A stretch of DNA of 64,000 nt from Desulfoferula mesophila (GTDB lineage: Bacteria > Desulfobacterota > Desulfarculia > Desulfarculales > Desulfarculaceae), in the NCBI RefSeq assembly GCF_037076455.1, contig NZ_AP028679.1, positions 1,627,501 to 1,691,500 of the forward strand. Direction: 5' to 3'. Under the pieces are notes generated by a model. The model worked only from the letters and a program-made list of their open reading frames with translations, was not told the origin of the DNA and did no database searches. Positions within the stretch are counted from its first letter, which is position 1. Each line of letters opens with the position of its first letter. Made by a program: the position numbers and the translations under genes. Positions 27,901-52,528 of the stretch are shown here, in pieces.

Positions 27901-27916
27901 TCGGGGGAGGTTTACA

Positions 27917-33562: not shown

Positions 33563-33627
33563 GGTCTTCCCCCCGATGGCCGATAATGGTCACAGGGAAA
33601 CACGGACCAAAACCCGGAGGGAAGACC
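33563..33627 (+). promoter_or_regulatory. Hairpin that hides the ribosome site of the IS110 transposase
   Basis: GGTCTTCCCCCCG (33563-33575) pairs with CGGAGGGAAGACC (33615-33627), 12 of 13 positions, ending directly at the ATG. The Shine-Dalgarno GGAGG is inside the stem. This would limit translation, and it may coincide with structured noncoding RNA of the element. Confidence 0.6.
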
Positions 33628-35072: not shown

Positions 35073-36659
35073 TCAATGAATATTGCGTTGAGAGTCATCC
35101 CAGTACTGTTTCCTCACCTTGCGTCGCAACAGCTTACCCACCGCGCTCAAGGGGAGCTCTTCCACGAAATCAATGCGTTTGGGAACTTTATAGCGAGTGA
35201 GGTTTTCCTTGCAGAAGGCGATCAGCTCATCCGACGTGGCCGAGGCCCCCTCCTTCAGCAGGACCACGCCGCACACCATTTCTCCCCAATATTCATCCGG
35301 CACCCCCACCACGGCTGAGTTTTGCACCGCCGGATGGGCGTTAAGGGCGTTCTCCACCTCCTGGGCATATACATTGAAGCCGCCAGTGATGATCATGTCC
35401 TTTTTGCGGTCCACCAGATATATCCGGCCCGCCTCGTCTCGATAACCAATGTCGCCGGACTTCCAAAAACCATTTTCCGTAAAATTGGCCTGGGTCTGCT
35501 CCGGGTCGTTGTAATAGCCGGCTATGGTGTTGCCGCCTCGGATCCATATCTCCCCTTCCTGGTGGGGAGGCGTTTCATTGCCCTCGTCGTCGCAGATCAT
35601 GACCTCTACTCCCGGTACCGGAGAGCCGACCGACTTAAGGATTTGGCGTTGCTCCTCGTTGTCCAGACCGTGTTCGCCGCGCCCAAGGATCGTTGCCGGC
35701 GGCCAGCATTCGGTGGAGGCGTAACCCTGCACGAACACTGGTCCGAATTGGGCCAGGAGCTCTTCTAGCTTGGCTGGCGAGATGGGCGAGGCTCCGTAGC
35801 GTATGGTGCGCAGGCTGCTGAGGTCGTATTTTTCCGGCAGCCCCATGTCCAGCATGCGGTAGAGGACGGTGGGTACCACGTAAATCAAATCCGTCCGGTC
35901 TTGCGCGACAGTCTGGCACATCAGGTCGATATCTACCCGGTTCAGAGTAATGACCTTGCCGCCCTTGAAATAGGCGGGCAGCATCACCGCGCCAGAGGCA
36001 TGGGTGATGGGTGTGCAAAGCAGGGCCTTGGGCTGCTCAAAGGGATAGAGCTCTATGAAATGGATGGGATTGAGCCCGGCGCTGAACACGTTGGAGATGC
36101 TGTACATGGTGCATTTGGGCTGGCCGGTGGTGCCGCCGGTGAAGCGCATGATGGCCATGTGCTTGCGCACGTCCTCATAGATGAACTCATCGCCGGGGTC
36201 CTGGCTCGAGGCCTGGGGAACTAGGTCCCAAAAATCGTATACCCCTTCCATGCTTTGCCAGGGCTTGTCCATGGCCACCATCACCACGCCCCGGCTGCGC
36301 AGCTGGTCGTAATACTGCTCGAGGAGCCTCTCCTCGATGAACACCACCCGCGCGCCCACCCAATCGATCTGGTGCAGGTGCTCCTGCAGGGAGTCGCGCA
36401 TGCCCAGCCACAGGGCGGTTGCCTTGCCCTTGGTCATCCAAAAATGCAGCAGGGCCATGTTGTCGTTTTCCAGCAGGGTGGCGTAACGGTCTCCTTCCTT
36501 GAGACCGAACTTTCCCTCTAGAATGTGACAGACCCGGTTGGTCAGCTCGTGTAATTGGCCAAAGGTCAGCCGGCGGTCTCTCTCCACGTTGTACAGGGCA
36601 AGCGAATCCTTATAGCGCCGAACGGTTTGTTTCATCAGCCTGGCTACGTTAATCAACAT
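35073..36659 (-). CDS. AMP-forming acyl-CoA ligase
   Basis: 528 aa ANL-superfamily adenylating enzyme that would convert a carboxylic acid to its CoA thioester using ATP. Visible core motifs: MRFTGGTTGQPKCT (P-loop), TPITHASG, VQGYASTECWPP (A5), GEIWIRGGNTIAGYYNDPEQ, KSGDIGYRDEAGRIYLVDRK (A7/A8), IITGGFNVYAQEVE, and LPLSAVGKLLRRKVR with the C-terminal catalytic Lys. Start at ATG 36657-36659 with AAGGG eight bases upstream, instead of the GTG three codons earlier. Last gene of the catabolic cluster, so it probably activates the imported substrate or an intermediate acid. The chain class cannot be told. Confidence 0.93.
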   Translation of the reverse strand: MLINVARLMKQTVRRYKDSLALYNVERDRRLTFGQLHELTNRVCHILEGKFGLKEGDRYATLLENDNMALLHFWMTKGKATALWLGMRDSLQEHLHQIDWVGARVVFIEERLLEQYYDQLRSRGVVMVAMDKPWQSMEGVYDFWDLVPQASSQDPGDEFIYEDVRKHMAIMRFTGGTTGQPKCTMYSISNVFSAGLNPIHFIELYPFEQPKALLCTPITHASGAVMLPAYFKGGKVITLNRVDIDLMCQTVAQDRTDLIYVVPTVLYRMLDMGLPEKYDLSSLRTIRYGASPISPAKLEELLAQFGPVFVQGYASTECWPPATILGRGEHGLDNEEQRQILKSVGSPVPGVEVMICDDEGNETPPHQEGEIWIRGGNTIAGYYNDPEQTQANFTENGFWKSGDIGYRDEAGRIYLVDRKKDMIITGGFNVYAQEVENALNAHPAVQNSAVVGVPDEYWGEMVCGVVLLKEGASATSDELIAFCKENLTRYKVPKRIDFVEELPLSAVGKLLRRKVRKQYWDDSQRNIH

Positions 36660-36743
36660 ACTTTGCACCCTTATTCAACATTGGGACCAACTCCTGCCTT
36701 CGACCAATCGGCTCGACGGCCACCCATATGATCTGACTCCTGA

Positions 36744-37643
36744 TCAGACCGCCGAGGCCGCCACCATCTCCTCGATTATCCTGGCCACGGGTTTGACCTC
36801 GTGCACCAGTCCGACATCTTGCCCTGCGGCTAAGGTGTAAACTTCTAAATTGCCTTGAATCCAGGCCCGCCCGATATCCTGCCTGCGGATGGCCTCTCCA
36901 CGGTTGGGATCGCGGCGCACTTCCATGGCCAGGGGAGTGGGCAGCACCCGCACTAAAATTTTTTCAGTGCGTCGAACCAGGAAGGTGTCTGTCTCGGAGG
37001 AGTCGCAGATCATGGCTTTGTAGCTCTGGTGGGCGATGCATTCGGTGGAGGCGATGAAGCGTGTTCCCACCTGGACCCCCTGGGCGCCCAAGGCTAGGGC
37101 GGCACGAAAGCCTCGTGAGTCGGCAACGCCGCCCGCGGCCACCACCGGCACCTCCACCGCGTCGCACACCGCCGGGACCAGCACCAAGGTGCCCACTGCT
37201 TCCACCCCCTGGATGCCTCCGGACTCGGCGCCCTCGGCTATAACCGCGTCCACGCCCACGGCCTGGGCCTTGACCGCCTTGTCCACGCTGGGGCAGACGT
37301 GCAGCACCTTGACCCCTTGGGGCTTGAGCAGCTCGATCAGGGGGCCGGGGTTGCCCGCGCTGGTGGTCACGGCCTTGAGGCCCATGTCCATCATGACCTC
37401 GGCCATCTCGGTGCAATGGGGATTGAGGACCGTGAGGTTGGCCCCGAACGGCTTGTCGGTCAGGGCCCGCACTGCCTTAATTTGGCGGCGCAGTTCCTCT
37501 GCGTCTTCCTGGAAGGCGGAGCCCAGCACCCCGAAGCCGCCGGCCTCCGATACCGCCGCCACCATCTCGGGGTTGCAGATGACCCCCATGGCCCCTTGGA
37601 TGACGGGATAACGGCATCCTAGCAATTCAGCAATTCTCGACAT
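36744..37643 (-). CDS. FMN-dependent nitronate monooxygenase/enoyl reductase-like protein (2-nitropropane dioxygenase family)
   Basis: 299 aa NPD/FabK-like TIM barrel. Visible: RYPVIQGAMGVICNPEMVAA, GGFGVLGSAF, FGANLTVLNPH, KAVTTSAGNPG, VIAEGAESGGIQG (the AExxGG flavin site), VPVVAAGGVADSRGFRAALA, GVQVGTRFIASTEC. In anaerobes this family often acts as flavin reductases or dehydrogenases of acyl-CoA intermediates rather than oxygenases; which reaction applies here is open. Start ATG 37641-37643 (SD GGGAG); the ATG one codon earlier overlaps the upstream stop. Paralogous to the gene at 48768. Confidence 0.85.
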   Translation of the reverse strand: MSRIAELLGCRYPVIQGAMGVICNPEMVAAVSEAGGFGVLGSAFQEDAEELRRQIKAVRALTDKPFGANLTVLNPHCTEMAEVMMDMGLKAVTTSAGNPGPLIELLKPQGVKVLHVCPSVDKAVKAQAVGVDAVIAEGAESGGIQGVEAVGTLVLVPAVCDAVEVPVVAAGGVADSRGFRAALALGAQGVQVGTRFIASTECIAHQSYKAMICDSSETDTFLVRRTEKILVRVLPTPLAMEVRRDPNRGEAIRRQDIGRAWIQGNLEVYTLAAGQDVGLVHEVKPVARIIEEMVAASAV

Positions 37644-37645
37644 CA

Positions 37646-38860
37646 TTAGCTCCCGGTTTTTGGGTCTGGCCAATCGGGCAGGCTGATCTGGAAAGGGACT
37701 CTGCGCCGGGGGCGCCAAGAGAATTCGCACCCGAAATCCGGCGTCGGCCACCCGTAGCGCTTCCTCTGGTGCAGATGGTGGATCGCCCCGTGCTTTTTGG
37801 CTTCAAAACCGATGTTGCCGTAAAGGGCCGCCTCCTCCAGCGGCTCCAGGCTGATGGCCCCGGCCTTTTGGGCGCCCGCCACCAGCTCCCGCCCCTTGTC
37901 ATTGCGCACGATGAAGCCGTTCCAATGCGGAACCTTTTGCAAGGGGCCCTTGGCGCCTCCCACGAAGATGTCCCCCAGAGAGACATCGGCCAGCTCGGCG
38001 GTCCAGTCGGGGCACATGCGGCAGCGGTCCCGGATGAGCCAGAGATAGTTGCTGATGCGGTCGGCGTTGGCGATGGTGTGCACCGAGCCGTCAGCGCATT
38101 TGATGGTGATGTCGTGGGAGCTAGGGCCTCCCCGGTAAGTGAACCCCCGAATCTCATGCAAGGGCACGTCGCTGAACTCGGCGATCACGTGCTCGGTGAT
38201 GCGATAGGAGGTGTTGGCCCCGCAGAACAACCCCAGGATGAAAACCACCCGCTCGCGCAAGTCCCGCCCCTGGGGCGAGGCGGCGAGCTTGCGCAGCCCG
38301 TGCACCTGGCAGGGAAGGGCGACCACCGCGACCCTTTCCCAGGTTGCGGCCTGGCCCAAGGCGGCCAGGGACGGGCAGAGCTGATACCTGGAGCCCACCG
38401 CCGCCCTAACCTCTTCTGGGCTGCGGGCCAAAATGGGGATGGTTCGCCAGGGCCGTTCCGGGTCGCTTCCGGCCAGCACAGCCGCATCGATCAGGCCCTG
38501 CTCCATGGCATAAATAAGCAAGGCGCTGGTGACCCCGCCACTGGCCGAGGCCCGGCGCAGAGACTCGTCGCGGGCATGACCGCAGAGCAGCTCCTGGTGC
38601 ACCCCCAGGTATTCTTCCTCGGGTGTGCGGCTTCGGCCCAGAAATTTTTCTTCCAGGACCGGCAAGGGAGCCCCGCCTCCGGGGCAGGCTGATGCGCACA
38701 GGCCGCAGCCAAGGCATTCACCGTCGAGGCGGGGCTCTTCGAGCTCATCGTCCCATTGCAGGCATTCATGGGGGCAGGCGCCTACGCACAACCCGCAGGC
38801 TGTGCAGAGCCCCCTGGCGATGACCTGGGCGTGCAGGTCTTTGAAGTCATCCATGGGCAT
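37646..38860 (-). CDS. FrhB/FdhB-family iron-sulfur flavoprotein (coenzyme F420 hydrogenase beta-subunit-like)
   Basis: 404 aa. Two N-terminal [4Fe-4S] motifs: CTACGLCVGACP and CLGCGLCASACP. The FrhB_N and FrhB_C parts follow: RASASGGVTSALLIYAMEQG, VGSRYQLCP, ALPCQVHGLRKL, LGLFCGANTSY, RDRCRMCPDWTAELADVSLG, DIFVGGAKG. Such proteins carry FAD and pass electrons between F420 or ferredoxin and a partner. Placed between the TRAP receptor and the NPD-like enzyme, it probably supplies electrons to, or takes them from, one of the flavoenzymes of the cluster. Partner unknown. Confidence 0.9.
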   Translation of the reverse strand: MPMDDFKDLHAQVIARGLCTACGLCVGACPHECLQWDDELEEPRLDGECLGCGLCASACPGGGAPLPVLEEKFLGRSRTPEEEYLGVHQELLCGHARDESLRRASASGGVTSALLIYAMEQGLIDAAVLAGSDPERPWRTIPILARSPEEVRAAVGSRYQLCPSLAALGQAATWERVAVVALPCQVHGLRKLAASPQGRDLRERVVFILGLFCGANTSYRITEHVIAEFSDVPLHEIRGFTYRGGPSSHDITIKCADGSVHTIANADRISNYLWLIRDRCRMCPDWTAELADVSLGDIFVGGAKGPLQKVPHWNGFIVRNDKGRELVAGAQKAGAISLEPLEEAALYGNIGFEAKKHGAIHHLHQRKRYGWPTPDFGCEFSWRPRRRVPFQISLPDWPDPKTGS

Positions 38861-38894
38861 TTGGCTTTTCCCGCTGGTTAAAGGCTGGGTGATT

Positions 38895-38930
38895 CGCCGG
38901 CCGTGGGGGATTCAGGTCCCACGGCCGGCG
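38895..38930. terminator. Perfect 13-bp hairpin between receptor and FrhB-like genes
   Basis: CGCCGGCCGTGGG and CCCACGGCCGGCG around a 10-base loop. No T-run follows on the minus strand, so it may damp read-through or protect the 3' end of the receptor mRNA rather than fully terminate. Confidence 0.55.
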
Positions 38931-38951
38931 ATGTCCACCGGCCAGGCTTCC

Positions 38952-40004
38952 TTACTTGCCCACCTTCCAATCAGGCTGCCAGAGCTTGACCTCCTTGAGG
39001 TACTTGGCCACGCCGGGATGCACCGGCACCCCCAGCACCGCGCCGATGCCCTTCAACTGCATTTCGCGCGCGAACTTGGGATCGGTGATTCCCTTGAAGA
39101 ATTTGTGGCCTTTCTTGAAGTCGGCCTGCGCCTGGGGCGAGAAGAGGGTCTTCAGGTAAGTGTAGGCGTCATCAGCCTTCACGTCGGAGGCAAAATGCCA
39201 TCCCCACCATTCCACGCCCATCCAGGTGGTCTTACCCTTGATTCCGGTGTTTTGCTTAAAGGGCGTGGCAAGCTGCTCAAAGCCGATGCCGTACTTGCCC
39301 AACTCCGTCTTCAGCTTGGCCACCTCAGCCGCGCTGGGCTCGATGATCTTGATCTTCACCTGGGTATCTATGTTTTGGGTCCAACTGGGCATGGCCTTAG
39401 CGCGGGCCACCAGGTAGACCCCCACCACGTCCACCAGGCCTGACTTGAGGGCGTTGGCCGCGTCCATGTATCCCATCTGGACGTTCTTGCCCATCTTAAT
39501 GTCTAGGGCCTTGAGCATGTATTTGAAGCCTTCAGAGATGCCACTACCCATCTTTCCCGGGAACACCTTCTTGCCGTTGATGTCGCTCAGGCTCTTGATG
39601 TCGTCACGGTCTGCCCGGGTGATCCAAAAGAGGTTGGCGTCGAAGTAGTAGAAGCCCTGGTAGATCTTGCTCTTGAGGGGGATCTTGGCGTAGGGGCCCT
39701 CGGAGTTGTAGGCCTGCCACAGGTCCAGGCCGCTGCCATAGGGTATGGCGCACTTACCGTCGGCCGCGTCCCGGAACCCCGCCACTGGCGAGGAATAGGG
39801 GATGCCCGAGATTTTGAGGTCGGAATACTTGCTCAAAGTCTTGGCGATGGTGGTGCCCACCGCGTAACCCGCCGTGCCCTCGCGGTTGATGTTCATCACC
39901 AGGGTGTCGCCCGCCAAGGACGGCGAGGCGGCGGCCCAGGTCCCGGTGATCATGGCCAGGCCGGCCACAGCCGTGATCATTCGCACCTTGAATCCTTTGG
40001 ACAT
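38952..40004 (-). CDS. TAXI-family TRAP transporter solute-binding receptor
   Basis: 350 aa periplasmic protein. Signal peptide of about 31 residues ending at SPSLA. TAXI features: LVMNINREGTAGYAVGTTIA, YGSGLDLWQAYNSEGPYAKI, TRADRDDIKSLSDINGKKVF, DAANALKSGLVDVVGVYLVA, then C-terminal HPGVAKYLKE. Unusual aromatic richness (GVEWWGWHF) in the likely ligand-closing part hints at a hydrophobic or ring-bearing ligand, but this is speculation. SD GGGAGG. 94 bases downstream of its permease gene. Confidence 0.93.
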   Translation of the reverse strand: MSKGFKVRMITAVAGLAMITGTWAAASPSLAGDTLVMNINREGTAGYAVGTTIAKTLSKYSDLKISGIPYSSPVAGFRDAADGKCAIPYGSGLDLWQAYNSEGPYAKIPLKSKIYQGFYYFDANLFWITRADRDDIKSLSDINGKKVFPGKMGSGISEGFKYMLKALDIKMGKNVQMGYMDAANALKSGLVDVVGVYLVARAKAMPSWTQNIDTQVKIKIIEPSAAEVAKLKTELGKYGIGFEQLATPFKQNTGIKGKTTWMGVEWWGWHFASDVKADDAYTYLKTLFSPQAQADFKKGHKFFKGITDPKFAREMQLKGIGAVLGVPVHPGVAKYLKEVKLWQPDWKVGK

Positions 40005-40097
40005 ATACTTCCCTCCCTGTTTAAGGATTCGCCTGTCACCCTCGAGCCTCCCGAGGGATATTTCCGCTTCCCTCCCCCCTCGTGAATTAATTTCATT

Positions 40098-42029
40098 TCA
40101 GGCCGGATTGGTCCTCAGCTTGCTTTTCCAGAAAACCGCCAGGAGGCCGATAATCATGGCGCTTAACACCACAGACACCCAGGCCAGGCTCATATAAGGA
40201 CTAAAGAGGGCGAAGAAGCCGAAGGCCAGCAGCAGGGCCCGCAGGCCGCCGGCCAATGCGCCAGGATATCTGAACTGCAGGCCGGTGGTGATGGCGATGA
40301 TGCCCATCCCCACCCGCACGAAAGCCACCAGGCCGTCGCCGTCAAGCTTGAGTAGGTTGGGCTGAAAGATGAAGGCGAAGGGCAGCAGGTATTTGGCTAC
40401 CCCTAGCTTCATGGACTCCCAGGCTGTTTCCATGTATCCCGAGTTGCTCAAGCTGCAGGCTATGGGAATTATGCCTGCCACCGGCGGAGTGATGGCCGAA
40501 AGCATGGCGAAGTAGAAGATCGCGAAATGGGTGGCCAGGTCCGGGATGCCAAAGGATTGCAGGGCCGGCGCGGCCACGATGACCGTGAGAATATAAGCGG
40601 CCACGGTGGTCACCGCCATACCGAAAAGAATGCACACCAGCATCACCAGCATGATGACCGGAACCATATGGTTGCCGCCCAGTTCCACCAGACCGTAGGA
40701 CAGGCGGGTGGATAGGCCCGACCCCACCAGGATCTTGACCACAATGCCCAGGCAGGCCAGCAATAAGATGATAGGCGCGGTGCCCGAGGCGGCCTTCACC
40801 GCTCCATCGATCAAGGTCTCAAGCAGTTCCTTGGGAGATTTACGATGGGATGCCAGGGCCAGGCACAGGAGTATTTGGGCAGCCACATAGGCCACCACCC
40901 CGTAGAAGCCACAGGTCATGGCGTCCAGTTTGGGCACTACCAGCAGGTAGAAAATGGTACCCATGCCCAGGGCCAGGCTTAACCCATCGGCCAGGGAGCC
41001 ATGCTTTTCTAGGTCTTCGTCCTTGGCATCGTCCTTGTGCACGTTATTGCTGGGCTTCATGTAGATGAGGCTGATGATGTAGACTGCCACCACGATGGAG
41101 AAGTAGAAGAGCACTGCCGGAAACACGCCGGCCATGACTACGTCCAGGTATTGAATGCCCAGGTACTCGGCGATGACGAAGGCGGTGGTGCCCATGATGG
41201 GCGGCATGATCTGGCCTCCGGCCGAGGCCGCGGCCTCTATGCCTCCAGCCACCTTGGGCGGTATGCCGTGCTTTTTCATCAGGGGAATGGTGAAGGCGCC
41301 GGTCCCCGCCAGGTTGGCCGCCGCGCTGCCGGTGAAAGAGCCGAAGACCATGCTAGCCAACACCCCGATCTGGGGGATCATGCGCTCGTTGCGGCGGGAG
41401 AGGCGGCGCACCAGTTCGATAGTGTAATCCATTCCTCCGAACACCCGCACGAAGCCGGCGAAGACGATGAAAATGGCCACGTACTTGAGCCCCACCTGTG
41501 GGAGCATGCCGAAGATGCCGCTGAAGCTAAGCGAAGTCTCCTGAAGCAGGCGCTCCACCCGCATGCCGGGGTGGTAAAGGAAACCGGGTAGATACTGGCC
41601 CAACAGACCGTAGAGGAGAAAGGCCGTGACCACCAAAGGGATGGCAAGGCCGTAGCAGATGTAGGTGAAGATGATGGTCATCACGATGAGGCTACCGGCC
41701 AGAACGAAGTCCAGGGTGTTGTTGGCTCCGTCCCGTTCGTAGAGCAGCGTGGGGTATTCGATATAAAAGTAAAGCCCGATGAACAGCCAGAGCATCACCA
41801 ACAGGACCACAAGGCCGCCGGAGACTGTGGCCCCCAACCTGGCTGTGTAGTTCTTTATCTGCACCAGCGAAACCAGGATGGCCGACATGGTGATGAGCCC
41901 AACCACCACCTGCTGGGGAGAGGCGAAGTAGGAGATGATGAAATACCCGATGTAGATGACGTAGAAAACGGACAAGACCTTTATCAGCACATCCTTAAAA
42001 CTGCCAGTCCCTGACTTTTCTTGCGCCAT
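40098..42029 (-). CDS. TRAP transporter fused permease (DctQM)
   Basis: 643 aa, with about 16 hydrophobic segments. The small DctQ-like part (residues 1 to about 150) is fused to the DctM part. DctM signatures: VFGSFTGSAAANLAGTGAFT, IPLMKKHGIPPKVAGGIEAA, ASAGGQIMPPIMGTTAFVIA, GMAVTTVAAYILTVIVAAPA, FYFAMLSAITPPVAGIIPIA. Works with the TAXI receptor using a Na+ or H+ gradient, importing the substrate of the cluster. SD GGAGG. Located between thiolase and receptor genes. Confidence 0.95.
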   Translation of the reverse strand: MAQEKSGTGSFKDVLIKVLSVFYVIYIGYFIISYFASPQQVVVGLITMSAILVSLVQIKNYTARLGATVSGGLVVLLVMLWLFIGLYFYIEYPTLLYERDGANNTLDFVLAGSLIVMTIIFTYICYGLAIPLVVTAFLLYGLLGQYLPGFLYHPGMRVERLLQETSLSFSGIFGMLPQVGLKYVAIFIVFAGFVRVFGGMDYTIELVRRLSRRNERMIPQIGVLASMVFGSFTGSAAANLAGTGAFTIPLMKKHGIPPKVAGGIEAAASAGGQIMPPIMGTTAFVIAEYLGIQYLDVVMAGVFPAVLFYFSIVVAVYIISLIYMKPSNNVHKDDAKDEDLEKHGSLADGLSLALGMGTIFYLLVVPKLDAMTCGFYGVVAYVAAQILLCLALASHRKSPKELLETLIDGAVKAASGTAPIILLLACLGIVVKILVGSGLSTRLSYGLVELGGNHMVPVIMLVMLVCILFGMAVTTVAAYILTVIVAAPALQSFGIPDLATHFAIFYFAMLSAITPPVAGIIPIACSLSNSGYMETAWESMKLGVAKYLLPFAFIFQPNLLKLDGDGLVAFVRVGMGIIAITTGLQFRYPGALAGGLRALLLAFGFFALFSPYMSLAWVSVVLSAMIIGLLAVFWKSKLRTNPA

Positions 42030-42098
42030 CTAACTAACCTCCGAAGGGCCCAATTCCCTTTAGATTTTATCCCTACGTCGCCAGCACCTAATTCCCAT

Positions 42099-43259
42099 TC
42101 AACGAGTTAAGATAGTTATGGAGCTGTTGGGACCGGCACCCATGGCGTGAGCTAGGGCCACTCTTGCCTTTTTCACCTGGCGGGAGCCGGCCTCCCCGCG
42201 CAGTTGGGTCACCAACTCACAAACTTGGCCCAGGCCCGTGGCACCCAGGGGATGCCCCCGCGACATCAAGCCACCGTCGGTATTCACCGGCAGGTCCCCG
42301 TACAGATCGAACTTGCCGTCCCTGAGCAGGCCAGCGGCCTCACCTTTATGGCAAAATCCCAGCTTTTCCATGCCCCACAGTTCAGAGGGCACGGTGGTAT
42401 CGTAGCCCTGCACCAGGTCCATATCCTCTGGCCCGTATCCCGAGGATTCATAGGCCTGTCGGGCCGAAAGCTCCACGATCCCCTCCTGGGGCGGGAACTT
42501 CAGGCTTTTGAGGATTCCGGCGGCCGGCATACCATCGCCGTAGACCCCGGAGGCGAGCACCGAGGTGGCCACCCTCACCGCCCGGGAAGAAGTGACCAGC
42601 TTGTCTTTGCTACAAAGCACCGCAGCGGCGGCCCCGTCGGCCAGGGGACAACAGTGCAGCAGCCTGAGCGGCTCGGCCACCATACGCGAGGCAAGCACCT
42701 CTTCCAGCGTCACCGGCTTTTGGAAACGCGCGTTGGGGTTCAGGGCCCCGTTCTTGCGGTTCTTCACCGTCACCCTGGCCAGGTCCTCCTCGGTGACCCC
42801 AGTCTCCTTCATGTACTCCACCGTCTCCAGTGCGTAATTGCCTACTTGGATATTGAAGCCCGACTCCAACTCCCAGGGCCGGAAGGCGGTGCTGGGTATG
42901 GGCCCCCGGGGCATCTTCTCCAAGCCCACCGCGATCACCACGTCGTAGACCTCGGCGGCCACCATCTGGAAGGCCAAGCGCAGGGCCGAGCCTCCGCTGG
43001 AGCAGGCGTTCTCTACGTTGACCACCGGAATACCGCTCAGGCCCACCTCGCTCACCGCTTTGTGTCCCGAAGCGGTGCCTTGGTAGACGCTGCCGCAAAA
43101 GACGGCCTGCATGTCGCCCCAGGTCATCTCGGCGTCGGCCAGGGCCTTGAATATGGCCTCGCTGCCAAAGTCATAGGACTCCTGATCTTCATAGAAACCC
43201 CATTTGGTCAGCCCTATGCCAGCGATGAACACTTCCCGCATTTGCTTAATCTCTTTCAT
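42099..43259 (-). CDS. Thiolase family protein (SCP2/BbsB-like)
   Basis: 386 aa thiolase of the branch that pairs with DUF35 proteins. Visible: NACSSGGSALRLAF (Cys nucleophile near residue 91), GLEKMPRGP, LHCCPLADGAAAAVLCS, LVQGYDTTVPSELWG, VNTDGGLMSRGHPLGATGLG (catalytic His), VALAHAMGAG. The usual second active-site Cys motif near the C-terminus (CxG) is replaced by HAMGAGPNSS, as in other members of this branch. Role: CoA-dependent cleavage of a 3-oxoacyl-CoA, or a retro-aldol step as in Ltp2. The DUF35 partner is encoded 14 bases upstream, as with bbsA-bbsB. Confidence 0.9.
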   Translation of the reverse strand: MKEIKQMREVFIAGIGLTKWGFYEDQESYDFGSEAIFKALADAEMTWGDMQAVFCGSVYQGTASGHKAVSEVGLSGIPVVNVENACSSGGSALRLAFQMVAAEVYDVVIAVGLEKMPRGPIPSTAFRPWELESGFNIQVGNYALETVEYMKETGVTEEDLARVTVKNRKNGALNPNARFQKPVTLEEVLASRMVAEPLRLLHCCPLADGAAAAVLCSKDKLVTSSRAVRVATSVLASGVYGDGMPAAGILKSLKFPPQEGIVELSARQAYESSGYGPEDMDLVQGYDTTVPSELWGMEKLGFCHKGEAAGLLRDGKFDLYGDLPVNTDGGLMSRGHPLGATGLGQVCELVTQLRGEAGSRQVKKARVALAHAMGAGPNSSITILTR

Positions 43260-43272
43260 GCTTGGCTCCCAC

Positions 43273-43707
43273 TCAGGCCACGGGCGTGAACATGAAGGTG
43301 ATTACTTGACGACCCTGCTCGTCCTCGCACAAAGGTCTAATCACCAATTCCGCCTCCTGCCCGGCCTGCAGCGTCTCCAGATCCTCGGCATAAAGCTGGC
43401 TGACCAGGCGCACCCCGTCCGAGAGGTCCACCATGCCGTAGGCATAGGGAACCGGCCCGTGATAAAAGCCACCGGCCGGGGGCTGGCGCACCAGAGTCAC
43501 CGCGGCCAATCTGCCCCGGGGGCTCAAAAGCATGTTTTCCAGGGTTGGTTGTTGGCAGTGCACGCACCAGCCCTTGGGCTTGGTGGGGAAATATATCTCC
43601 CCACAGTTGGTGCAGCGGCTGCCGATGAGACGGGGGCCGCTCTCCGGGGTCGCGGAGGCCCAAAAGCCCTCCCGCAAGGGAATTTTTTCAGGTCCAATCT
43701 CACTCAT
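43273..43707 (-). CDS. DUF35 OB-fold/zinc-ribbon protein, thiolase partner (BbsA-like)
   Basis: 144 aa. N-terminal rubredoxin-like zinc ribbon SRCTNCGEIYFPTKPKGWCV with a second pair CVHC, then the DUF35 OB-fold (GRLAAVTLVRQPPAGGFYHG, PYAYGMVDLSDGVRLVSQLY). Binds acyl-CoA and completes the active site of the thiolase or aldolase encoded next. Start ATG 43705-43707 (SD GGGAG), rather than the longer frame eight codons upstream. Confidence 0.9.
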   Translation of the reverse strand: MSEIGPEKIPLREGFWASATPESGPRLIGSRCTNCGEIYFPTKPKGWCVHCQQPTLENMLLSPRGRLAAVTLVRQPPAGGFYHGPVPYAYGMVDLSDGVRLVSQLYAEDLETLQAGQEAELVIRPLCEDEQGRQVITFMFTPVA

Positions 43708-43758
43708 TATTATTTTTCTCCCCGCACACAATTTGTCGTTGAGGGGTGTCCCGACCCC

Positions 43759-44538
43759 TTATTTGCCTTGGAAACAAGGCTTGCGCTTTTCCTTGAATGC
43801 GTTGATGGCTTCCTGGTAATCCTCGGTCAGGCTGATCAGGGCGGCGCACTTGGCCTCGAAATCAAAGCCCTGGGCAAAAGGCATTTCCATGCCCTCGCCT
43901 ATGGCCGCCTTGAACAGCTTGAGCACCAATGGGGGCCTTTGTTTGTAGAGCTCGGCCAGTTCCCGTGCGGTGTCCATTAGCTCGGCCACCGGCACCGCCT
44001 GGTTAACCAAGTTGATGCGCTCGGCCTGCTCGGCGTCTATGGGCAGGCCGCTGAAGATGAGCTCCTTGGCCCGGGGAATGCCTATGAGCCGCGGCAGCCT
44101 CTGGGAGCTGCCCCCCCCGCCCATAATCCCCAGCTTGGTGTGCGCGTCGCCCAGCTTGGCGTTGTCCGCCGCGATGCGGATGTCGCAGGCGCAGGCCAGT
44201 TCCAGGCCACCGCCCAGGCAATAGCCGGCAATGGCCGCGATCACCGGCTTGCCCAGGTCTTCCAGAAGGTGATAGTAGCTGTAGGTCCGCTTGGGGCTTA
44301 GCTTGTCCCACAGAGTGGAAGGACCCGGCTGGTCGGTCACGTCGGCCCCGGCGCAGAACACTTCCGTGCCACCTGTGATGATCAGCACCCTCACCTGATC
44401 GTCGCGCTCGCAATCGCGGATCGCCTCAATGAGCTCGTCGCGCATCACCGAGTTGACCGTATTTAGCTTGTCCGCGCGGTTCAGGGTGATAACGGCCACC
44501 CCGTTGTCTTTGGCATAAAGGATGGTCTGAAAGTTCAT
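43759..44538 (-). CDS. Enoyl-CoA hydratase/isomerase (crotonase) family protein
   Basis: 259 aa. Crotonase features: LNRADKLNTVNSVMRDELIE, FCAGADVTDQ (oxyanion-hole Ala), IAGYCLGGGLELACACDIRI (second oxyanion Gly and first catalytic Glu), then LGDAHTKLGIMGGGGSSQRL. In classical hydratases the second Glu (E164 of rat crotonase) sits where His is found here (GDAH). It may therefore be an isomerase, a hydrolase or a hydratase with altered chemistry. Start ATG 44536-44538 with GGAAGG. Between SDR and DUF35 genes, as expected for a beta-oxidation hydratase. Confidence 0.88.
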   Translation of the reverse strand: MNFQTILYAKDNGVAVITLNRADKLNTVNSVMRDELIEAIRDCERDDQVRVLIITGGTEVFCAGADVTDQPGPSTLWDKLSPKRTYSYYHLLEDLGKPVIAAIAGYCLGGGLELACACDIRIAADNAKLGDAHTKLGIMGGGGSSQRLPRLIGIPRAKELIFSGLPIDAEQAERINLVNQAVPVAELMDTARELAELYKQRPPLVLKLFKAAIGEGMEMPFAQGFDFEAKCAALISLTEDYQEAINAFKEKRKPCFQGK

Positions 44539-44558
44539 TGCTCGCCTTCCCCCCAGAC

Positions 44559-45341
44559 CTAGAACAGGGCGTATCCGCCGTTTACGCTCAGAGTCTGCCC
44601 TGTGACCCAGCCGGCCCGGCCTGAGCACAGGAAACAGATTGCGTCGGCTGCGTCCTGGGGCCGCCCGAATCGCCGGATCAGATAGTTGGACAAGAAGCTT
44701 TTTTGTAGGGCCTCAATAGTGATGCCCTTGCGCTCTGCAATCTGCTCCTGATATTTGCGTCCGCCGGGGGTGTCCATGGCCGATAGGGCCACGCAGTTAA
44801 CTCGGATCAGGTGGCGGCCCAACTCCCGGGCCAGGGACTTGGAAAAGGCGATGACCCCGCCCTTGGCTGCCGAGTACACAGGGTTGTTCACCTCACCCAC
44901 CCGACCGGCATCCGAGACCACGTAGACTATGGAACCGCCCTGGTTGGCGATCATGTTGTCTAGAACGGCCTTGGTGGAGTACAGGGGGCCCATGAGGTTC
45001 AGGTCCAGGGCGAATTGCCAATCCTCCGGCCCCGACTTCTGGAAGGGCTTGCGTTCTCCACGGCCTGGGATGTGCACCAGAATGTCGATTTTGCCGAATT
45101 TTTCGATGGTCTGGTTGACCGCCCCGGTCACCTGGGCCTGATCAGTCACGTCCAATTCGAACCAAAGGGCCTTTTGGCCCATGGCTTCCACCTTGGCCGC
45201 GGTCTCCTTTACCTTGTCGGCGTTCATGTCAGCCGCCGCGATATTGGCTCCGTCAGCGGCCAGCATCTCGGCCACTAGAACACCGATGCCGTCGCCGCCC
45301 CCGGTGAGGAAGACGTTTTTACCTTTAACCAGCAAATCCAT
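44559..45341 (-). CDS. Short-chain dehydrogenase/reductase
   Basis: 260 aa Rossmann protein. TGGGDGIG (cofactor Gly motif), DMNADK (acidic residue after beta-2, so NAD rather than NADP), HIPGRG replacing the usual NNAG, catalytic Ser in VVSDAGRVG and YSAAK (Tyr-Lys), GGYALF C-terminus. Likely oxidises the 3-hydroxyacyl-CoA of the pathway, like BbsC/BbsD. Only one such subunit is encoded, unlike the BbsCD heterodimer. SD GGAG. Twenty bases before the crotonase start. Confidence 0.9.
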   Translation of the reverse strand: MDLLVKGKNVFLTGGGDGIGVLVAEMLAADGANIAAADMNADKVKETAAKVEAMGQKALWFELDVTDQAQVTGAVNQTIEKFGKIDILVHIPGRGERKPFQKSGPEDWQFALDLNLMGPLYSTKAVLDNMIANQGGSIVYVVSDAGRVGEVNNPVYSAAKGGVIAFSKSLARELGRHLIRVNCVALSAMDTPGGRKYQEQIAERKGITIEALQKSFLSNYLIRRFGRPQDAADAICFLCSGRAGWVTGQTLSVNGGYALF

Positions 45342-45412
45342 CTTGATTCTCCTTTTGATTGAAAAGCGGGCGCGCGGGCGCTAATCATCCACGCTGTGGC
45401 CAGGCGTTGTGT

Positions 45413-46564
45413 CTACCTGAAGGCCGACACACCTAAAATCTCGCGCCCCAGCAATAGCTTTTGTATCTGGGTGGTGCCCTCGGCCATGGTCAGGTGCCGC
45501 ACGTCGCGGAAATACCGTTCCACTGGGAACTCCGAGGTGTAGCCGTAGCCTCCGTGCACTTGGATGGCCGTATTGCACACCTCGACCATGGCCTCGGTGG
45601 AATAGAGCTTTGCAAAGGATGCCTCCCGTCGGCAATCAACCCCACTGTCCAGCATCAAGGCGGCCCGCATGCCCAATAAGCGGGCGGTGTCCACCTTGAG
45701 GGCCATCTCCACGATCATTTCCTGCACTAGCTGGAAGCCGGCTATTGCCTTGCCGAACTGGACCCGCTCTTGGGCGTAGCGTATGGAGGCTTCCAGGGCC
45801 GCCTGCCCCAGTCCCACCACCGCGAATGTGACGTTGACCCTGCCCTCGTTGAGCCCGCTCAGGGCTATGCGCTGGCCCTCGCCTTCCTGGCCCAGACGGT
45901 TGGCCGCCGGCACTCGGCAGTCCACAAAGGCCAGCTCGGAAAGAGACGAGCAGTGCATGCCCATTTTGCGGATGTTGCGGGCCTCGAAAGGCGACTCGTT
46001 CTTGTGCACCAAAAAACCGGTGATCGCCTTGCGGCCGTCGGGCTGCTTCACCTGGGCGTAAACCAGCACCAGGTCGGCCAGGCCGCCTCCGGTGATCAGG
46101 GTTTTGGTACCGTTGATGACGTAATAATCGCCGTCGCGTTCGGCCTTGGTCTCCAAAGAACCGGTGTCAGAGCCCACGTTGGGTTCTGTGAGTGCGAAGC
46201 AGGCCAGTTCGTCCATGGCCAAGAGGGGAGGTAGAAACTTTTCGCGCTGCTCCGGGCTGCCCATGCGGCCTAGCAGCTTGGTCACAAGGGCAGAGGATGT
46301 GACCATGGTGCGTAGTGAGGCCCAGGTGCGGCTCAGTTCCTCCACCATGAGGCAGTAGCTGAGAAAGTCCAGGCCAAGTCCGCCATGCTCCTCCGCCACA
46401 AGACCGCTGGCGTAGCCGTAGGGCTCCAGCATTTTGATGATGTCTTTGGTTATCAGCTTGCTCTGGCTCTCATACTCCTCCACAAGGGGTGAGATCTCCT
46501 TGGCCAGAAACTTGCGCACACTGTCTACGATGATTCGCTGCTCTTCGTTCAGTTCTATTTCCAT
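45413..46564 (-). CDS. Acyl-CoA dehydrogenase
   Basis: 383 aa FAD enzyme. Visible: AEEHGGLGLDFLSYCLMVEE, CFALTEPNVGSDTGSLETKA (signature 1), YVINGTKTLITGGGLADLVL, and near the C-terminus HGGYGYTSEFPVERYFRDVR with LTMAEGTTQIQKLLLGREIL, where the Glu of AEGTTQ is the catalytic base position. Introduces a 2,3-double bond into an acyl-CoA. ATG 46562-46564 is chosen; a GTG six codons earlier would add MRGCRD. It lies between the CoA-transferase and SDR genes, as BbsG does in bbs clusters. Confidence 0.92.
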   Translation of the reverse strand: MEIELNEEQRIIVDSVRKFLAKEISPLVEEYESQSKLITKDIIKMLEPYGYASGLVAEEHGGLGLDFLSYCLMVEELSRTWASLRTMVTSSALVTKLLGRMGSPEQREKFLPPLLAMDELACFALTEPNVGSDTGSLETKAERDGDYYVINGTKTLITGGGLADLVLVYAQVKQPDGRKAITGFLVHKNESPFEARNIRKMGMHCSSLSELAFVDCRVPAANRLGQEGEGQRIALSGLNEGRVNVTFAVVGLGQAALEASIRYAQERVQFGKAIAGFQLVQEMIVEMALKVDTARLLGMRAALMLDSGVDCRREASFAKLYSTEAMVEVCNTAIQVHGGYGYTSEFPVERYFRDVRHLTMAEGTTQIQKLLLGREILGVSAFR

Positions 46565-46607
46565 GTCGCGACAACCTCGCACTATGGTGAAGTCCTCACC
46601 AATGGGA

Positions 46608-47777
46608 CTAAATAATCATTTGCTCCCGTAATGAATCTATTTCCTTGCTGGTAAGGCCCCGCTCCTGGAGCCACTTCCCGGTATCGCGTCCCACTGCCAA
46701 GCCCTGGATTTCTCCAGACCCCCGCCGGCCCATGCCTGGCACCGGGAAGCGGGGAAAAACTTCCGTGCCGCTTTCTTCCTGCTTTGGCCCGAAAAAACCG
46801 CGCTCAATCAGTTGGGGGTCGCTGGTCCACTGGTCCAGGTCGTGCACTGGGGCCACTGGCACGTCGGCGTCGCTGAGCAGCCTTAGCCACTCCTCGCGGT
46901 CCTTTCCTTGGAAGACCTGCTCAAGAAGAGGTATGAGCCGCGCCGCCTGTTGGTTGCGGGCCAACCATCCTTGCAGTTCTGGGTCTTCCGCTAGTTCATC
47001 CAGGCCAGCCGCCCGGCAGAAGTTTTGCCAAAAATGGTCTTCCACGATGCCCAGGGTCAGGTACTTGCCATCGCGGGCCTGGAATACCCCATATGGTCCC
47101 CTGGCCATGAACACTTCCTTGGGGGGGTTCCCACGGTGCAGGAACTCCATGTAGCGAGGCATGACCAGCATGCCTGTGCTCTCGCTCATGGACACATCCA
47201 GGAACCTGGCTCCGGGGTCGCTCGCGCGGCCCAACAAGGCTGCCAGAATGGCGTTGGCCGCGAACAGCGAGCCCGCCAGGTCGGAATACTGGGGACCCGA
47301 GGGGAATTCGGGACGGCCGGAGTTCGGGTTGCCGGATATACTCAGCACCCCGGCGATTCCCATGTAGTTGAGGTCGTGGCCAGGCCAAGAGGCATAGGGA
47401 CCGTCCTGGCCGTAGCCGGACAGGGAGCAGTAGATGATGGAAGGATTGGCCTGACTCACCGGGTCGAAGTCCACTCCGAGCCTGGCGGCCACCCCCGGGC
47501 GGAAGCCTTCTAAGAGCACGTCGCAGGTCGCGGCCAAATCCAAAAACAGCTCCCTGCCACGGGGATTTTTCAGATCCAGGCTGATTAGGTCTTTTTGGGC
47601 GTTCAGGTACTCGAAGGTTTTTGGGGACATTCGGCGCATGGAATCCCCCCCTTGGGGGGACTCCACCTTGAGTACTTGGGCCCCCAGGGAGGCCAGGAGC
47701 ATGGTGCAGTAGGGACCGGGCAGCAGGGCGCTGAGATCTAGAATCTTGATGCCTCTCAGGGGTCTGTAATCCTGCAT
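46608..47777 (-). CDS. Family III CoA-transferase (CaiB/BaiF)
   Basis: 389 aa. Family features: GIKILDLSALLPGPYCTMLL, LGAQVLKVESPQGGDSMRRM, ISLDLKNPRGRELFLDLAAT, LLEGFRPGVAARLGVDF, GYGQDGPYASWPGHDLNYMG, and PQYSDLAGSLFAANAI, whose Asp aligns with the catalytic aspartate. It moves CoA from a pathway thioester (for example succinyl-CoA) to an acid. Only one gene is present, whereas BbsE/BbsF are two paralogues, so it may act as a homodimer. With the AMP-forming ligase there are two ways to activate the substrate. Confidence 0.92.
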   Translation of the reverse strand: MQDYRPLRGIKILDLSALLPGPYCTMLLASLGAQVLKVESPQGGDSMRRMSPKTFEYLNAQKDLISLDLKNPRGRELFLDLAATCDVLLEGFRPGVAARLGVDFDPVSQANPSIIYCSLSGYGQDGPYASWPGHDLNYMGIAGVLSISGNPNSGRPEFPSGPQYSDLAGSLFAANAILAALLGRASDPGARFLDVSMSESTGMLVMPRYMEFLHRGNPPKEVFMARGPYGVFQARDGKYLTLGIVEDHFWQNFCRAAGLDELAEDPELQGWLARNQQAARLIPLLEQVFQGKDREEWLRLLSDADVPVAPVHDLDQWTSDPQLIERGFFGPKQEESGTEVFPRFPVPGMGRRGSGEIQGLAVGRDTGKWLQERGLTSKEIDSLREQMII

Positions 47778-47802
47778 GAAGCTGTTCCCCCGGCCGCGTG
47801 GC

Positions 47803-48516
47803 CTAAGAACCGGCCTCGGCCCTCAGGGAGGCCGTGAACTGGTAGATGCCCTCCTGGTCGAACTGAGACTGGCTCAGGAACCGGGCCAGCACAGCCTCGA
47901 TGTGCTCGCGCACCTCTTTCTCTGCTTCCTCGGGTGCCCTGTCGCGCAAGGCCCGCAATATGCGCCGGTGTTCATCTATGGAAGATGGAATGATGCTGCT
48001 GTTGGCGTAGTACTGGGTGGTTAACCACAGCCAGAGGATGGACTTGACGATGGAGCTGATGGCGCGCTTGAGGGCCCGGTTGTCGGCCACCTGCAAGAAA
48101 GAGCGGTGAAAGGCGAAGTTGAGCTCGGCGCACTTGTGATAGTTGCCCGCCTGGAACTCCCGCTCAATCTCTTGGTTGATCTGCTCCATCCCCGCGATCT
48201 TTTCCGGGGTGATGTTGGCCACGGCCAGGCGGGCGGCCAAGCTCTCCAGGGCGGCCAGCACCGGGATGTTGTCAGTGAGATCCTCCCGGGTCAGGTTGCG
48301 CACGTACTTTTTCTTATAGGCGTCCACCACCACCAGTCCGTCGGCCTCCAAAAGGCGGATAGCTTCGCGGATGGGAGCCCGGCTGACCCCGAAGTCAGCT
48401 TGCAGCTCCTGCTCGACCAGACGCGTGCCGGGGCTCAACTCGCCCTTGGCGATGGCACGCGAGATGCTAGCGCATATCTGATCAACCATGGATTTTGGCT
48501 TGGCAAACTCAGGCAC
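47803..48516 (-). CDS. GntR-family transcriptional regulator (FCD/FadR type)
   Basis: 237 aa. N-terminal winged helix (residues about 10-72: ISRAIAKGELSPGTRLVEQE, FGVSRAPIREAIRLLEADGL), C-terminal all-helical FCD domain with metal-binding His residues (ELNFAFHRSFLQ, DEHRRILRALRDRAPEEAEK, VREHIEAV). Likely binds an acid or CoA ligand and controls the catabolic operon it heads. GTG start with AAGGAGG five bases upstream. The TTGTCGACAA palindrome lies 63 bases before it. Confidence 0.92.
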   Translation of the reverse strand: MPEFAKPKSMVDQICASISRAIAKGELSPGTRLVEQELQADFGVSRAPIREAIRLLEADGLVVVDAYKKKYVRNLTREDLTDNIPVLAALESLAARLAVANITPEKIAGMEQINQEIEREFQAGNYHKCAELNFAFHRSFLQVADNRALKRAISSIVKSILWLWLTTQYYANSSIIPSSIDEHRRILRALRDRAPEEAEKEVREHIEAVLARFLSQSQFDQEGIYQFTASLRAEAGS

Positions 48517-48767
48517 TTGGCCTCCTTTTCTTAATTGCTCCGGTGCTAGATCTAGAGTGTGGACTCAATCTATTATAGTTGTCGACAATAAGTCAAGAAT
48601 AATTTACTCTATTATTGATGGTAGGCCGCCTCTTGATTTCTGAACGGGCCTGAATGTCTCAAACGCCATAAATATTTAACAAAATACCTGTGTGCTACCC
48701 CAAAATATGGCAAGAGAGACCCTGGCGGGCAAAGCGAGAAACAGTACAAATAACCGGAGCTGAGCAA
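48517..48767. promoter_or_regulatory. Divergent promoter region with GntR-type operator TTGTCGACAA
   Basis: The 250 AT-rich bases between gntR (minus) and the second NPD-like gene (plus). The perfect palindrome TTGTCGACAA at 48579-48588 fits the FCD-subfamily consensus (TNGTNNNACNA), and a TATAAT on the minus strand (complement of 48572-48577) lies directly beside it, so the regulator would control itself and probably both directions. Confidence 0.6.
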
Positions 48768-49715
48768 ATGCGAGCCAACCGTCTGACTGAGATTCTGGGA
48801 ACCCGCTACCCCCTACTGCTCGGGCCCATGCGGCGCATCACCCTCGGCGAGATGACCGCCCAGGTCTCTAACTGTGGCGCTTTTGGCCAGATAGCTACCG
48901 GATTGCTGCCCCTGGCCAGGGTGCGTGAAGAAATAGGCCTGGCCCAGTCCCTAACCCGGAAGCCCTTTGGGGTCAACTTGCCTCTGGTGCGCAAACAAGC
49001 CATGGATTATTTGGGAGCGGCCATGGACCTGGGGGTCCAGGTGGTGACCACCAGCGCGGGCAAGCCCGATGCGGTGGTGGCCCGGGCTAAGACCGCAGGA
49101 ATGAAGATCCTGCACAAGGTCTCCTCGGTCAGCCAGGGATTAAGGGCCCAGGAGGCAGGCGTGGACGCGGTTATTGCCATGGGCTATGAAGCGGGCGGGC
49201 ACGTGGGCAGGGAGATGACCACCACTCTCTGCCTGGTGCCGCAGTTGGTAGACGCCTTGGAGATTCCGGTGGTGGCGGCCGGCGGGGTGGGCGACCACCG
49301 CGGCTTTTTGGCGGCCCTGGCCTTGGGGGCGGAGGGGGTGGAGATGGGAACCAGGTTCCTGGCCACCCGGCAGTGCCCCATCCCTTCATTTTACAAAGAC
49401 GCCCTCTTGGAGGCCGGGGACGAAAGCACCTTGTTGCTGGGCAAGAAGGCCATGCCGGTCAGGGTGCTTCGAAACCAGAAAGCATTGGGCATTCAAAACA
49501 CCGACAGGGAACAAGAGGACGCGGGAGTGCGGCGGGAGAACGACACCCTGTCTTATGTCGACTCCAACAGTGATGCCCAGGAGGCATTGATGATGTCGGG
49601 CCAAGTCGCCGGGCTTCTCCGAGAGGTGGAGGACATACAAACGGTGGTGGAACAAATAGTGAATCAAGCGTGCCATCTCGCCCATGTGCTAAGCGGCGTT
49701 TGGGCGCCCGAATGA
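48768..49715 (+). CDS. Second FMN-dependent NPD/nitronate monooxygenase-like protein
   Basis: 315 aa TIM-barrel flavoprotein, paralogous to 36744-37643. Visible: ILGTRYPLLLGPMRRITLGE, KPFGVNLPLVRKQAMDYLGA, VVTTSAGKPDAVVARAKTAG, VIAMGYEAGGHVGREMTTTL, IPVVAAGGVGDHRGFLAALA, GVEMGTRFLATRQCPIPSFY. The ExGGH motif differs from ESGGI in its sister gene, so the two probably act on different substrates. Start ATG 48768 with GGAG; longer frames lack a ribosome site. Divergent from, and probably controlled by, the GntR regulator. Confidence 0.87.
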   Translation: MRANRLTEILGTRYPLLLGPMRRITLGEMTAQVSNCGAFGQIATGLLPLARVREEIGLAQSLTRKPFGVNLPLVRKQAMDYLGAAMDLGVQVVTTSAGKPDAVVARAKTAGMKILHKVSSVSQGLRAQEAGVDAVIAMGYEAGGHVGREMTTTLCLVPQLVDALEIPVVAAGGVGDHRGFLAALALGAEGVEMGTRFLATRQCPIPSFYKDALLEAGDESTLLLGKKAMPVRVLRNQKALGIQNTDREQEDAGVRRENDTLSYVDSNSDAQEALMMSGQVAGLLREVEDIQTVVEQIVNQACHLAHVLSGVWAPE

Positions 49716-51636: not shown

Positions 51637-51686
51637 ATCAGCTTCAATCCAAATCTTACGCTTAAGCTTGTGTAAACCTCCCCCGA

Positions 51687-52496: not shown

Positions 52497-52528
52497 GAAC
52501 TTAGCCAGATCGCGCCGACCCGCTGGCC

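Follow-up and report, generated by a model that had tools for sequence, protein, structure and literature searches.

We infer that a 12-gene operon of Desulfoferula mesophila, contained in the 64,000-nucleotide stretch of DNA analysed here (the window), imports and degrades a carboxylic acid substituted at its alpha carbon, most likely by a methyl group, by way of racemisation, beta-oxidation and the release of propionyl-CoA, a reading to which we give a probability of about 55%. A TAXI-type TRAP transporter would import the acid and an AMP-forming ligase would convert it to its CoA ester, while the CaiB-fold protein would interconvert the (2R) and (2S) forms, letting a stereospecific acyl-CoA dehydrogenase act. 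The crotonase would then hydrate the 2-methyl-enoyl-CoA, the SDR would oxidise the 3-hydroxyl, and the DUF35/thiolase complex would split 2-methyl-3-oxoacyl-CoA into a shortened acyl-CoA and propionyl-CoA, the latter feeding the methylmalonyl-CoA pathway. For 2-methyl-branched acids the known sequence of steps begins with a racemase and runs through dehydrogenation, hydration and an oxidation of SDR type to an SCPx thiolase (PMC4729952). The sequence itself shows which genes are present, their order and conservation, the racemase triad, the thiolase clade, the repeated 10-mer and the island; substrate, stereochemistry, products and regulation are inferred from these. The genes for degrading such acids are poorly assigned in sulfate reducers, and if the reading is true it would put forward a set of genes to test, along with a marker (the CaiB triad together with the YDT thiolase) found in Desulfobacterota, Bacillota and others.

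Operon layout, conservation and genomic setting

The sequence-only reading had described this gene inventory as a TRAP-fed catabolic operon with a beta-oxidation ending in thiolase/DUF35 cleavage, and both descriptions hold, with every named gene an intact open reading frame supported by Pfam or NCBIfam (Table 1). The genes on the one strand encode, in order, GntR, CaiB, acyl-CoA dehydrogenase, SDR, crotonase, DUF35, thiolase, fused TRAP permease, TAXI-type receptor, FrhB-like protein, NPD1 and AMP-ligase, with NPD2 divergent. Because the gaps between the operon genes are only 8 to 93 bases, a single transcript is likely. The TAXI-type receptor (NMT1_3) exceeds its PF16868 cut-off and falls just under that of TIGR02122 (77.2 bits, cut-off 84.35), and a PDB search with it gave no useful ligand clue. 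The AMP-ligase belongs to the long-chain acyl-CoA ligase subfamily, under every listed cut-off, and the PDB matches of the acyl-CoA dehydrogenase include short/branched-chain dehydrogenases.

Table 1. Features of the operon and of the surrounding island segment
Feature	Position in window	Strand	Support
att-like repeat, left end of island segment	32917..32952	+	36/36 identical to tRNA-Arg 3′ end at 19983-20018
AMP-forming acyl-CoA ligase, 531 aa	35073..36668	-	PF00501 + PF13193
NPD1, nitronate monooxygenase (NMO)/FabK-like flavoprotein	36744..37637	-	PF03060 206 bits
FrhB-like iron-sulfur flavoprotein	37646..38860	-	PF04422 + PF04432 + Fer4
TAXI-type TRAP solute receptor	38952..40004	-	PF16868 72 bits
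TRAP fused permease	40098..42029	-	TIGR02123 387 bits, above cut-off 320.65
SCP2-type thiolase	42099..43259	-	Cys86, Tyr286 (YDTT), His336, His371
DUF35 zinc-ribbon/OB subunit, thiolase partner	43273..43731	-	PF01796 + PF12172 (OB_ChsH2/zf-ChsH2)
Crotonase-type enoyl-CoA hydratase	43759..44541	-	PF00378 211 bits
SDR, candidate 3-hydroxyacyl-CoA dehydrogenase	44559..45341	-	PF13561/PF00106
Acyl-CoA dehydrogenase	45413..46582	-	PF00441 + PF02770 + PF02771
CaiB-fold protein	46608..47777	-	PF02515 (CoA_transf_3) 309 bits
GntR-type regulator	47803..48516	-	TIGR03338 118 bits, below cut-off 271.5
Palindrome TTGTCGACAA, divergent promoter region	48579..48588		
NPD2, second NMO/FabK-like flavoprotein, divergent	48690..49715	+	PF03060 186 bits
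Diverged att-like repeat, right end of island segment	55020..55055	+	30/36 identical; next-best place in window 22/36

The search for this gene order in other genomes, proposed as a check on the sequence-only reading, was successful: another species of the genus (L037/L075) has the same 12 genes, identically ordered, at 65-86% identity, which excludes a chance arrangement. Identities in L037 are 80% for the AMP-ligase, 76% for NPD1, 84% for the TAXI-type receptor and 71% for GntR, while in a third species (L036) they are 85% for the acyl-CoA dehydrogenase, 91% for the SDR and 81% for the thiolase. The first seven genes of the operon are found again in another family, and the GntR regulator is 45% identical in L065. 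A wider scan of the phylum added no further loci, an absence that is weak since for most genomes the scoring covered only four candidates each, and it supplied no independent test set, as L085 and L086 appear from gene identity to be L054 and L052. Relatives of the thiolase were absent among viral contigs.

The palindrome TTGTCGACAA is likely the GntR operator, and GntR bound there would control both directions of transcription. In L075 and L065 the GntR gene is likewise preceded by this 10-mer, which occurs at five of 90 loci overall; a search of the organism's own genome for the operator with W flanks, a pattern that leaves out the window's site (G flank), returned one other site, at 396954. 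The operon sits on a mobile tRNA-Arg genomic island, and the att-like repeats mark the two ends of the island segment.

The CaiB-fold protein and the nature of the acid

The family-III 'CoA-transferase' of the operon looks, by its active-site residues, like a racemase, and we describe it as racemase-like. Its His134, Asp166 and Glu246 are the alpha-methylacyl-CoA racemase triad, the catalytic residues of the M. tuberculosis racemase MCR being His126, Asp156 and Glu241 (PMC12246613). They are invariant in alignments that include the canonical racemase found in the CaiB slot of L036, which scores 332 bits to MCR versus about 121 to CoA-transferases. The triad is common to the thiolase-adjacent CaiB proteins of L035, L037, L040, L043-L045, L047, L053-L057 and L065, and the corresponding residues are Tyr/Asp/Asn in SUGCT and YfdE, Tyr/Asp/Ser in genuine BbsF and Ser/Tyr/Asn in genuine BbsE. 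CaiB proteins near some other members of the thiolase clade (L046, L049, L058) lack it, and it may not be exclusive to racemases, since related CaiB proteins in other contexts (L088, L089) also carry it. MCR Asn152, which binds Asp156, is not conserved in the window's protein. Overall similarity, at 158 bits to MCR and 175 to SUGCT, does not separate racemase from transferase, and the folded monomer has a TM of about 0.5 to both alike. CoA transfer as the activation step is not supported, given a triad that genuine BbsE and BbsF do not have, and would be unnecessary because a separate AMP-ligase is present. Family-III "CoA-transferases" of catabolic operons may be racemases, and the annotation calls for caution.

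Were CaiB a true CoA-transferase, the operon could instead carry an aromatic or alicyclic acid, of the 3-phenylpropanoate or cyclohexane type, to acetyl-CoA by ordinary beta-oxidation, which we consider unlikely. CoA-transferases do head the NCBIfam and PDB lists for CaiB, the SDR has BadH as its second-best NCBIfam match, and Desulfococcus multivorans forms a set of TRAP, ligase, hydratase, dehydrogenase and thiolase on phenylacetate/phenylpyruvate and has a beta-oxidation set for 3-phenylpropanoate (PMC5109826). However, the BadH match reaches 191 bits against a cut-off of 431, a ligase is already there, and the racemase triad, the canonical racemase in the L036 slot and the methylmalonyl-type neighbours of some relatives all argue for an alpha-methyl-branched acid. 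As to these neighbours, the L040 thiolase is directly followed by a methylmalonyl-CoA epimerase gene, the L041 cluster contains a sodium-pumping decarboxylase beta subunit, and subunits of a B12 acyl-CoA mutase adjoin DUF35/thiolase in L046 and L048; genome G000 holds several genes of the methylmalonyl-CoA-mutase family. The proposal of a ring-bearing or branched acid is narrowed: the racemase-like CaiB and the methylmalonyl-type neighbours favour the branched half, and nothing was found that points to a ring or favours flavin steps reducing ring double bonds. Neighbours of the methylmalonyl type are limited to a few loci.

The thiolase/DUF35 pair and the flavoproteins

The thiolase falls in a 25-member clade (support 100/100), apart from the BbsB clade, itself supported at 100/100, so that the phylogeny suggested earlier as a check separates the two. 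The clade is widespread and apparently undescribed, and its active site is altered. The Cys nucleophile is conserved in all 25 members, as is the GH His, and in all 25 the HDxF His is replaced by Tyr (YD[T/S/A]), a replacement seen in none of the 37 other thiolases compared; the window's enzyme keeps Cys86, His336 and His371, and has YDTT instead of HDCF/HDAF. DUF35 is present at 24 of the 25 loci, the remaining one being cut at a contig end, and an SDR usually lies near the thiolase. The PDB matches of the DUF35 subunit are 6esq, 7pxp, PhlB and ChsH2.

The Tyr of the YDxx motif is essential in the steroid aldolases Ltp2 and Sal (PMC12329534), and its uniform presence in the clade, together with the DUF35 partner, would suit a retro-aldolase of their kind, in which Tyr286 takes the proton of the 3-hydroxyacyl-CoA and cleavage proceeds without prior oxidation. 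We regard this as distinctly improbable, since the Cys nucleophile and GH His persist in 25/25 members, the neighbourhood usually offers an SDR that could carry out the oxidation beforehand, and the residue after YD is Thr, not the His or Cys of the aldolases, although in Ltp2 the second catalytic residue may instead be Tyr344; the fold, too, scores somewhat higher against thiolases (BbsB, archaeal and SCP2 enzymes, with Z of about 49-55) than against Ltp2/Sal. On a further, quite unlikely reading, the 25 members are a new class of C-C cleaving enzyme, whose hybrid site of thiolase Cys/His and aldolase Tyr, possibly with a mixed mechanism, would serve CoA esters with an alpha branch, which are poor substrates for ordinary thiolases. 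The pathway would then be an anaerobic one for branched acids, with the electrons of one step carried by a FrhB/NPD complex that does not depend on F420. The clade offers a natural test of the interconversion of thiolase and aldolase active sites.

The enzyme classes are identical to those of bbs operons, and the sequence-only reading had likened the gene set to theirs. Descent from a bbs/bns-type module that lost its fumarate-adding enzyme and in which BbsEF and BbsCD were each reduced by a subunit has a negligible probability in our judgement, being contradicted by the thiolase tree and by the active-site comparison, in which BbsE and BbsF are without the triad. The proteins share 24-38% identity with a genuine bbs operon, and their scores lie far below the BbsB (255.9 versus 750 bits) and BbsA (47.2 versus 250 bits) cut-offs. 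As had been claimed, a glycyl-radical fumarate-adding enzyme is missing: PF02901 has no match across the whole genome, where positive controls worked, and fumarate addition was rejected. The earlier suggestion that the pathway may be undescribed is also supported, the gene set matching no known one.

The FrhB-like protein combines an N-terminal 4Fe-4S domain with FrhB_N and FrhB_C, has 8riu as its best PDB match and scores below the FrhB cut-off; the NPD1 gene, at 265 bits to the FabK model (cut-off 453), starts 8 bases past it. Because no CofE was found in the genome, F420 use by the FrhB-like protein is unlikely. The genome's only CofD-family gene is GAK CofD-like, so CofD was set aside as a sign of F420 synthesis, and F420-dependent reduction was rejected. 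The FrhB-like protein and NPD1 probably work together to transfer electrons in one redox step without F420. FrhB and NPD proteins are without a place in plain beta-oxidation.

Comparison with known systems

The FrhB-like protein shares its FrhB_N, FrhB_C and 4Fe-4S domains with the beta subunits of F420-reducing hydrogenases and dehydrogenases (FrhB, 8riu), and differs from those systems in its sub-cut-off score and in a genome where CofE was not found. M. tuberculosis MCR has the family III fold and His/Asp/Glu triad in common with the CaiB-fold protein, but overall identity is low and Asn152 is not shared. The bbs operon of anaerobic toluene degradation (BbsA-H) has the same CaiB, acyl-CoA dehydrogenase, crotonase, SDR, DUF35 and thiolase classes; it differs in having two triad-less CoA-transferase subunits and two SDRs where the window has one CaiB and one SDR, a thiolase of another clade, and a fumarate-adding enzyme. 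The steroid side-chain aldolases Ltp2-ChsH2 and Sal-Shy resemble the thiolase/DUF35 pair in joining an SCP2-thiolase fold to DUF35 and in the YDxx Tyr, whereas their motifs are YDHF/YDCY rather than YDTT, and the window's clade retains the thiolase Cys and GH His and has an SDR. The nearest analogue is the peroxisomal beta-oxidation of 2-methyl-branched acids (ligase, AMACR, ACOX2, D-bifunctional protein and SCPx; PMC4729952), with the same order of chemical steps, related families of racemase, SDR dehydrogenase and SCP2-type thiolase, and a propionyl-CoA product that the operon would share. In contrast to the peroxisomal pathway, the operon has an acyl-CoA dehydrogenase in place of an oxidase and a crotonase in place of a MaoC-type hydratase, and adds a DUF35 partner, a dedicated TRAP importer and the FrhB and NPD proteins.

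The operon and its relatives

The operon is real, conserved and island-borne, and domain searches back every gene call in its 12-gene inventory as drawn up in the sequence-only reading, with intergenic gaps of 8-93 bases. The TAXI-type receptor falls slightly under the TIGR02122 cut-off (77.2 vs 84.35 bits) and passes Pfam NMT1_3. Another species of the same genus (L037/L075, L074) carries the complete 12-gene order at 65-86% identity, with an MBL-fold hydrolase downstream of the ligase and a divergent MFS transporter. GntR-CaiB-ACAD-SDR-ECH-DUF35-THL is retained at 45-72% identity in L065, from another family of the same class, and a CaiB-fold gene, ACAD, SDR, DUF35 and THL in L036, from the same genus. 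The FrhB-like gene is rare, with just two weak relatives among 395 sampled genomes besides G000, the genome containing the window. G000 is a single contig of 4.48 Mb, and L036, its nearest named relative, puts it in or close to Desulfarculaceae.

Features of the operon and its surroundings
Feature	Position	Detail
tRNA-Arg(acg)	19942-20018	36-base 3′ end at 19983-20018
Phage-type integrase gene	20033-20884	adjoins tRNA-Arg
Primase/D5-type genes	25763-29346	first integrated element
IS3, two inverted copies	26713-27916; 51671-52874	1204 bases, 100% identical; IS3 transposase
att-like copy, left	32917-32952	36/36 identical to tRNA-Arg 3′ end
IS110 RNA-guided transposase	33586-34674	barely inside left end of island
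Operon, minus strand	48516 down to 35073	GntR, CaiB, acyl-CoA dehydrogenase (ACAD), SDR, crotonase (ECH), DUF35, thiolase (THL), fused TRAP permease, TAXI-type receptor, FrhB-like, NPD1, AMP-ligase
Palindrome	48579-48588	single occurrence in window
NPD2	48690-49715	divergent from operon
DctP-type TRAP receptor (267 aa), GntR/FCD regulator	52888-54923	near right end
att-like copy, right, diverged	55020-55055	30/36; next best place 22/36

The gene set had been likened to that of benzylsuccinate β-oxidation; descent from bbs is contradicted: window proteins share 24-38% identity with a genuine bbs operon (L079), scores to bbs models are low (BbsB, 256 vs a cut-off of 750 bits; BbsA, 47 vs 250), and in the thiolase tree the window enzyme falls in a clade of 25 rows (100/100), separate from the one that holds BbsB (100/100). 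As a control, L079 itself gave BbsB above cut-off and BbsF at 571 bits to 9fn0. The reported absence of a glycyl-radical fumarate-adding enzyme extends to the entire G000 genome, where a search for PFL-like glycyl-radical enzymes came back empty.

The palindrome TTGTCGACAA, upstream of GntR, is similarly placed in L075 and L065. It occurs in five records among 90 loci (L037, L075, L065, L053, L090), where L037 and L075 are the same place and L090 was retrieved by operator pattern search. The L053 copy lies within or beside the SDR gene. That of L090 (1502-1511) is a further copy in G000 outside the window (G000:C1:396954) and a possible second regulon member. NPD1 starts 8 bases past the FrhB-like gene, a spacing that suggests a joint module; elsewhere, NPD-type genes directly follow the thiolase (L056) or lie some kilobases off (L051). 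Use of F420 by the FrhB-like protein is unlikely, because CofE was not found in G000 and its CofD-family gene is GAK CofD-like.

Catalytic residues of the CaiB-fold protein and thiolase

The CaiB-fold protein, previously called a CoA-transferase, is probably a racemase, judging by its residues. Catalysis in the M. tuberculosis racemase MCR is assigned to His126/Glu241 and Asp156 (PMC12246613), and all three recur in the window protein (H134, E246 and D166). BbsE and BbsF are without this triad, and the CoA-transferases SUGCT and YfdE lack its His and Glu; neither overall similarity nor the fold model separates the two activities for the window protein. The triad is also present in the thiolase-adjoining CaiB of L035, L037, L040, L043-L045, L047, L053-L057 and L065, and the occupant of the L036 CaiB slot scores 332 bits to MCR vs ~121 to YfdE. 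On the other side, CaiB proteins near clade members L046, L049 and L058 are without the triad, so its link to the thiolase clade is not universal, and it turns up in CaiB proteins from two further contexts. A roseobacter plasmid cluster (L088, 2158-11283) lacks a thiolase; besides a triad-bearing CaiB it has genes for TRAP, an SDR, a pair of acyl-CoA dehydrogenases, a ligase and MaoC, plus a homologue of citryl-CoA lyase.

The thiolase (predicted fold, pLDDT 87.5) resembles BbsB, archaeal and SCP2 thiolases (Z ~49-55) and Ltp2/Sal (~45). In all 25 clade members the HDAF/HDCF His is replaced by Tyr, mostly as YDT, else YDS or YDA, a change seen in 0/37 other thiolases compared. The corresponding Tyr is catalytic in the aldolases Ltp2 and Sal (PMC12329534), which would favor retro-aldol cleavage by the DUF35/thiolase pair; however, the NACSS Cys, the GH His and the HA(M/S)GAG motif are kept in 25/25 and an SDR is usually close by, making thiolysis the likelier reaction. 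Related clusters include that of a mobilizable Sporosarcina plasmid (L035, 15001-23667; thiolase 61%), with a racemase-type CaiB, DctP TRAP and MaoC genes. This plasmid cluster also encodes a further SCP2-type thiolase, which groups with zebrafish SCP2-thiolase. Clusters in Bacillota (L043-L045, L047) have, alongside the clade thiolase, another thiolase/DUF35, an amidohydrolase and a protein with a CoA_trans domain.

The host island

The pattern used to search for the att-like copies was written from the tabulated sites themselves, so its zero expectation arises partly by construction; a repeat search and a separate 36-base comparison are independent of it. GC content is 0.584 across 32953-55055 vs 0.677 left of the tRNA and 0.603 in the right flank, the last making GC alone weak evidence for an island. 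Since the first element ends at the perfect att copy, two islands seem to be stacked in tandem. The inverted IS3 copies bracket the operon-bearing region, and the receptor and regulator near the right end are perhaps a remnant of another catabolic cluster.

Proposed pathway

Gene neighbors give moderate support for a propionyl-CoA link, as few loci have them. A methylmalonyl-CoA epimerase homologue directly follows the thiolase in L040 (100 bits vs cut-off 115), a sodium-pumping decarboxylase β subunit lies within the gene run of L041 (481 vs 191), and B12 acyl-CoA mutase subunits flank DUF35/THL in L048 (both subunits) or, with one CaiB in between, precede it in L046; G000 has several mutase-family genes. 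Beyond the established gene content, residues and conservation, we infer a substrate and products: an α-methyl-branched acid would be imported and activated by the ligase, its CoA ester racemized, dehydrogenated, hydrated and oxidized by the SDR, and thiolytic cleavage would finally yield propionyl-CoA. If the racemase reading holds, the operon is a new variation on branched-acid β-oxidation, with the same order of steps as the peroxisomal AMACR-SCPx route (PMC4729952).
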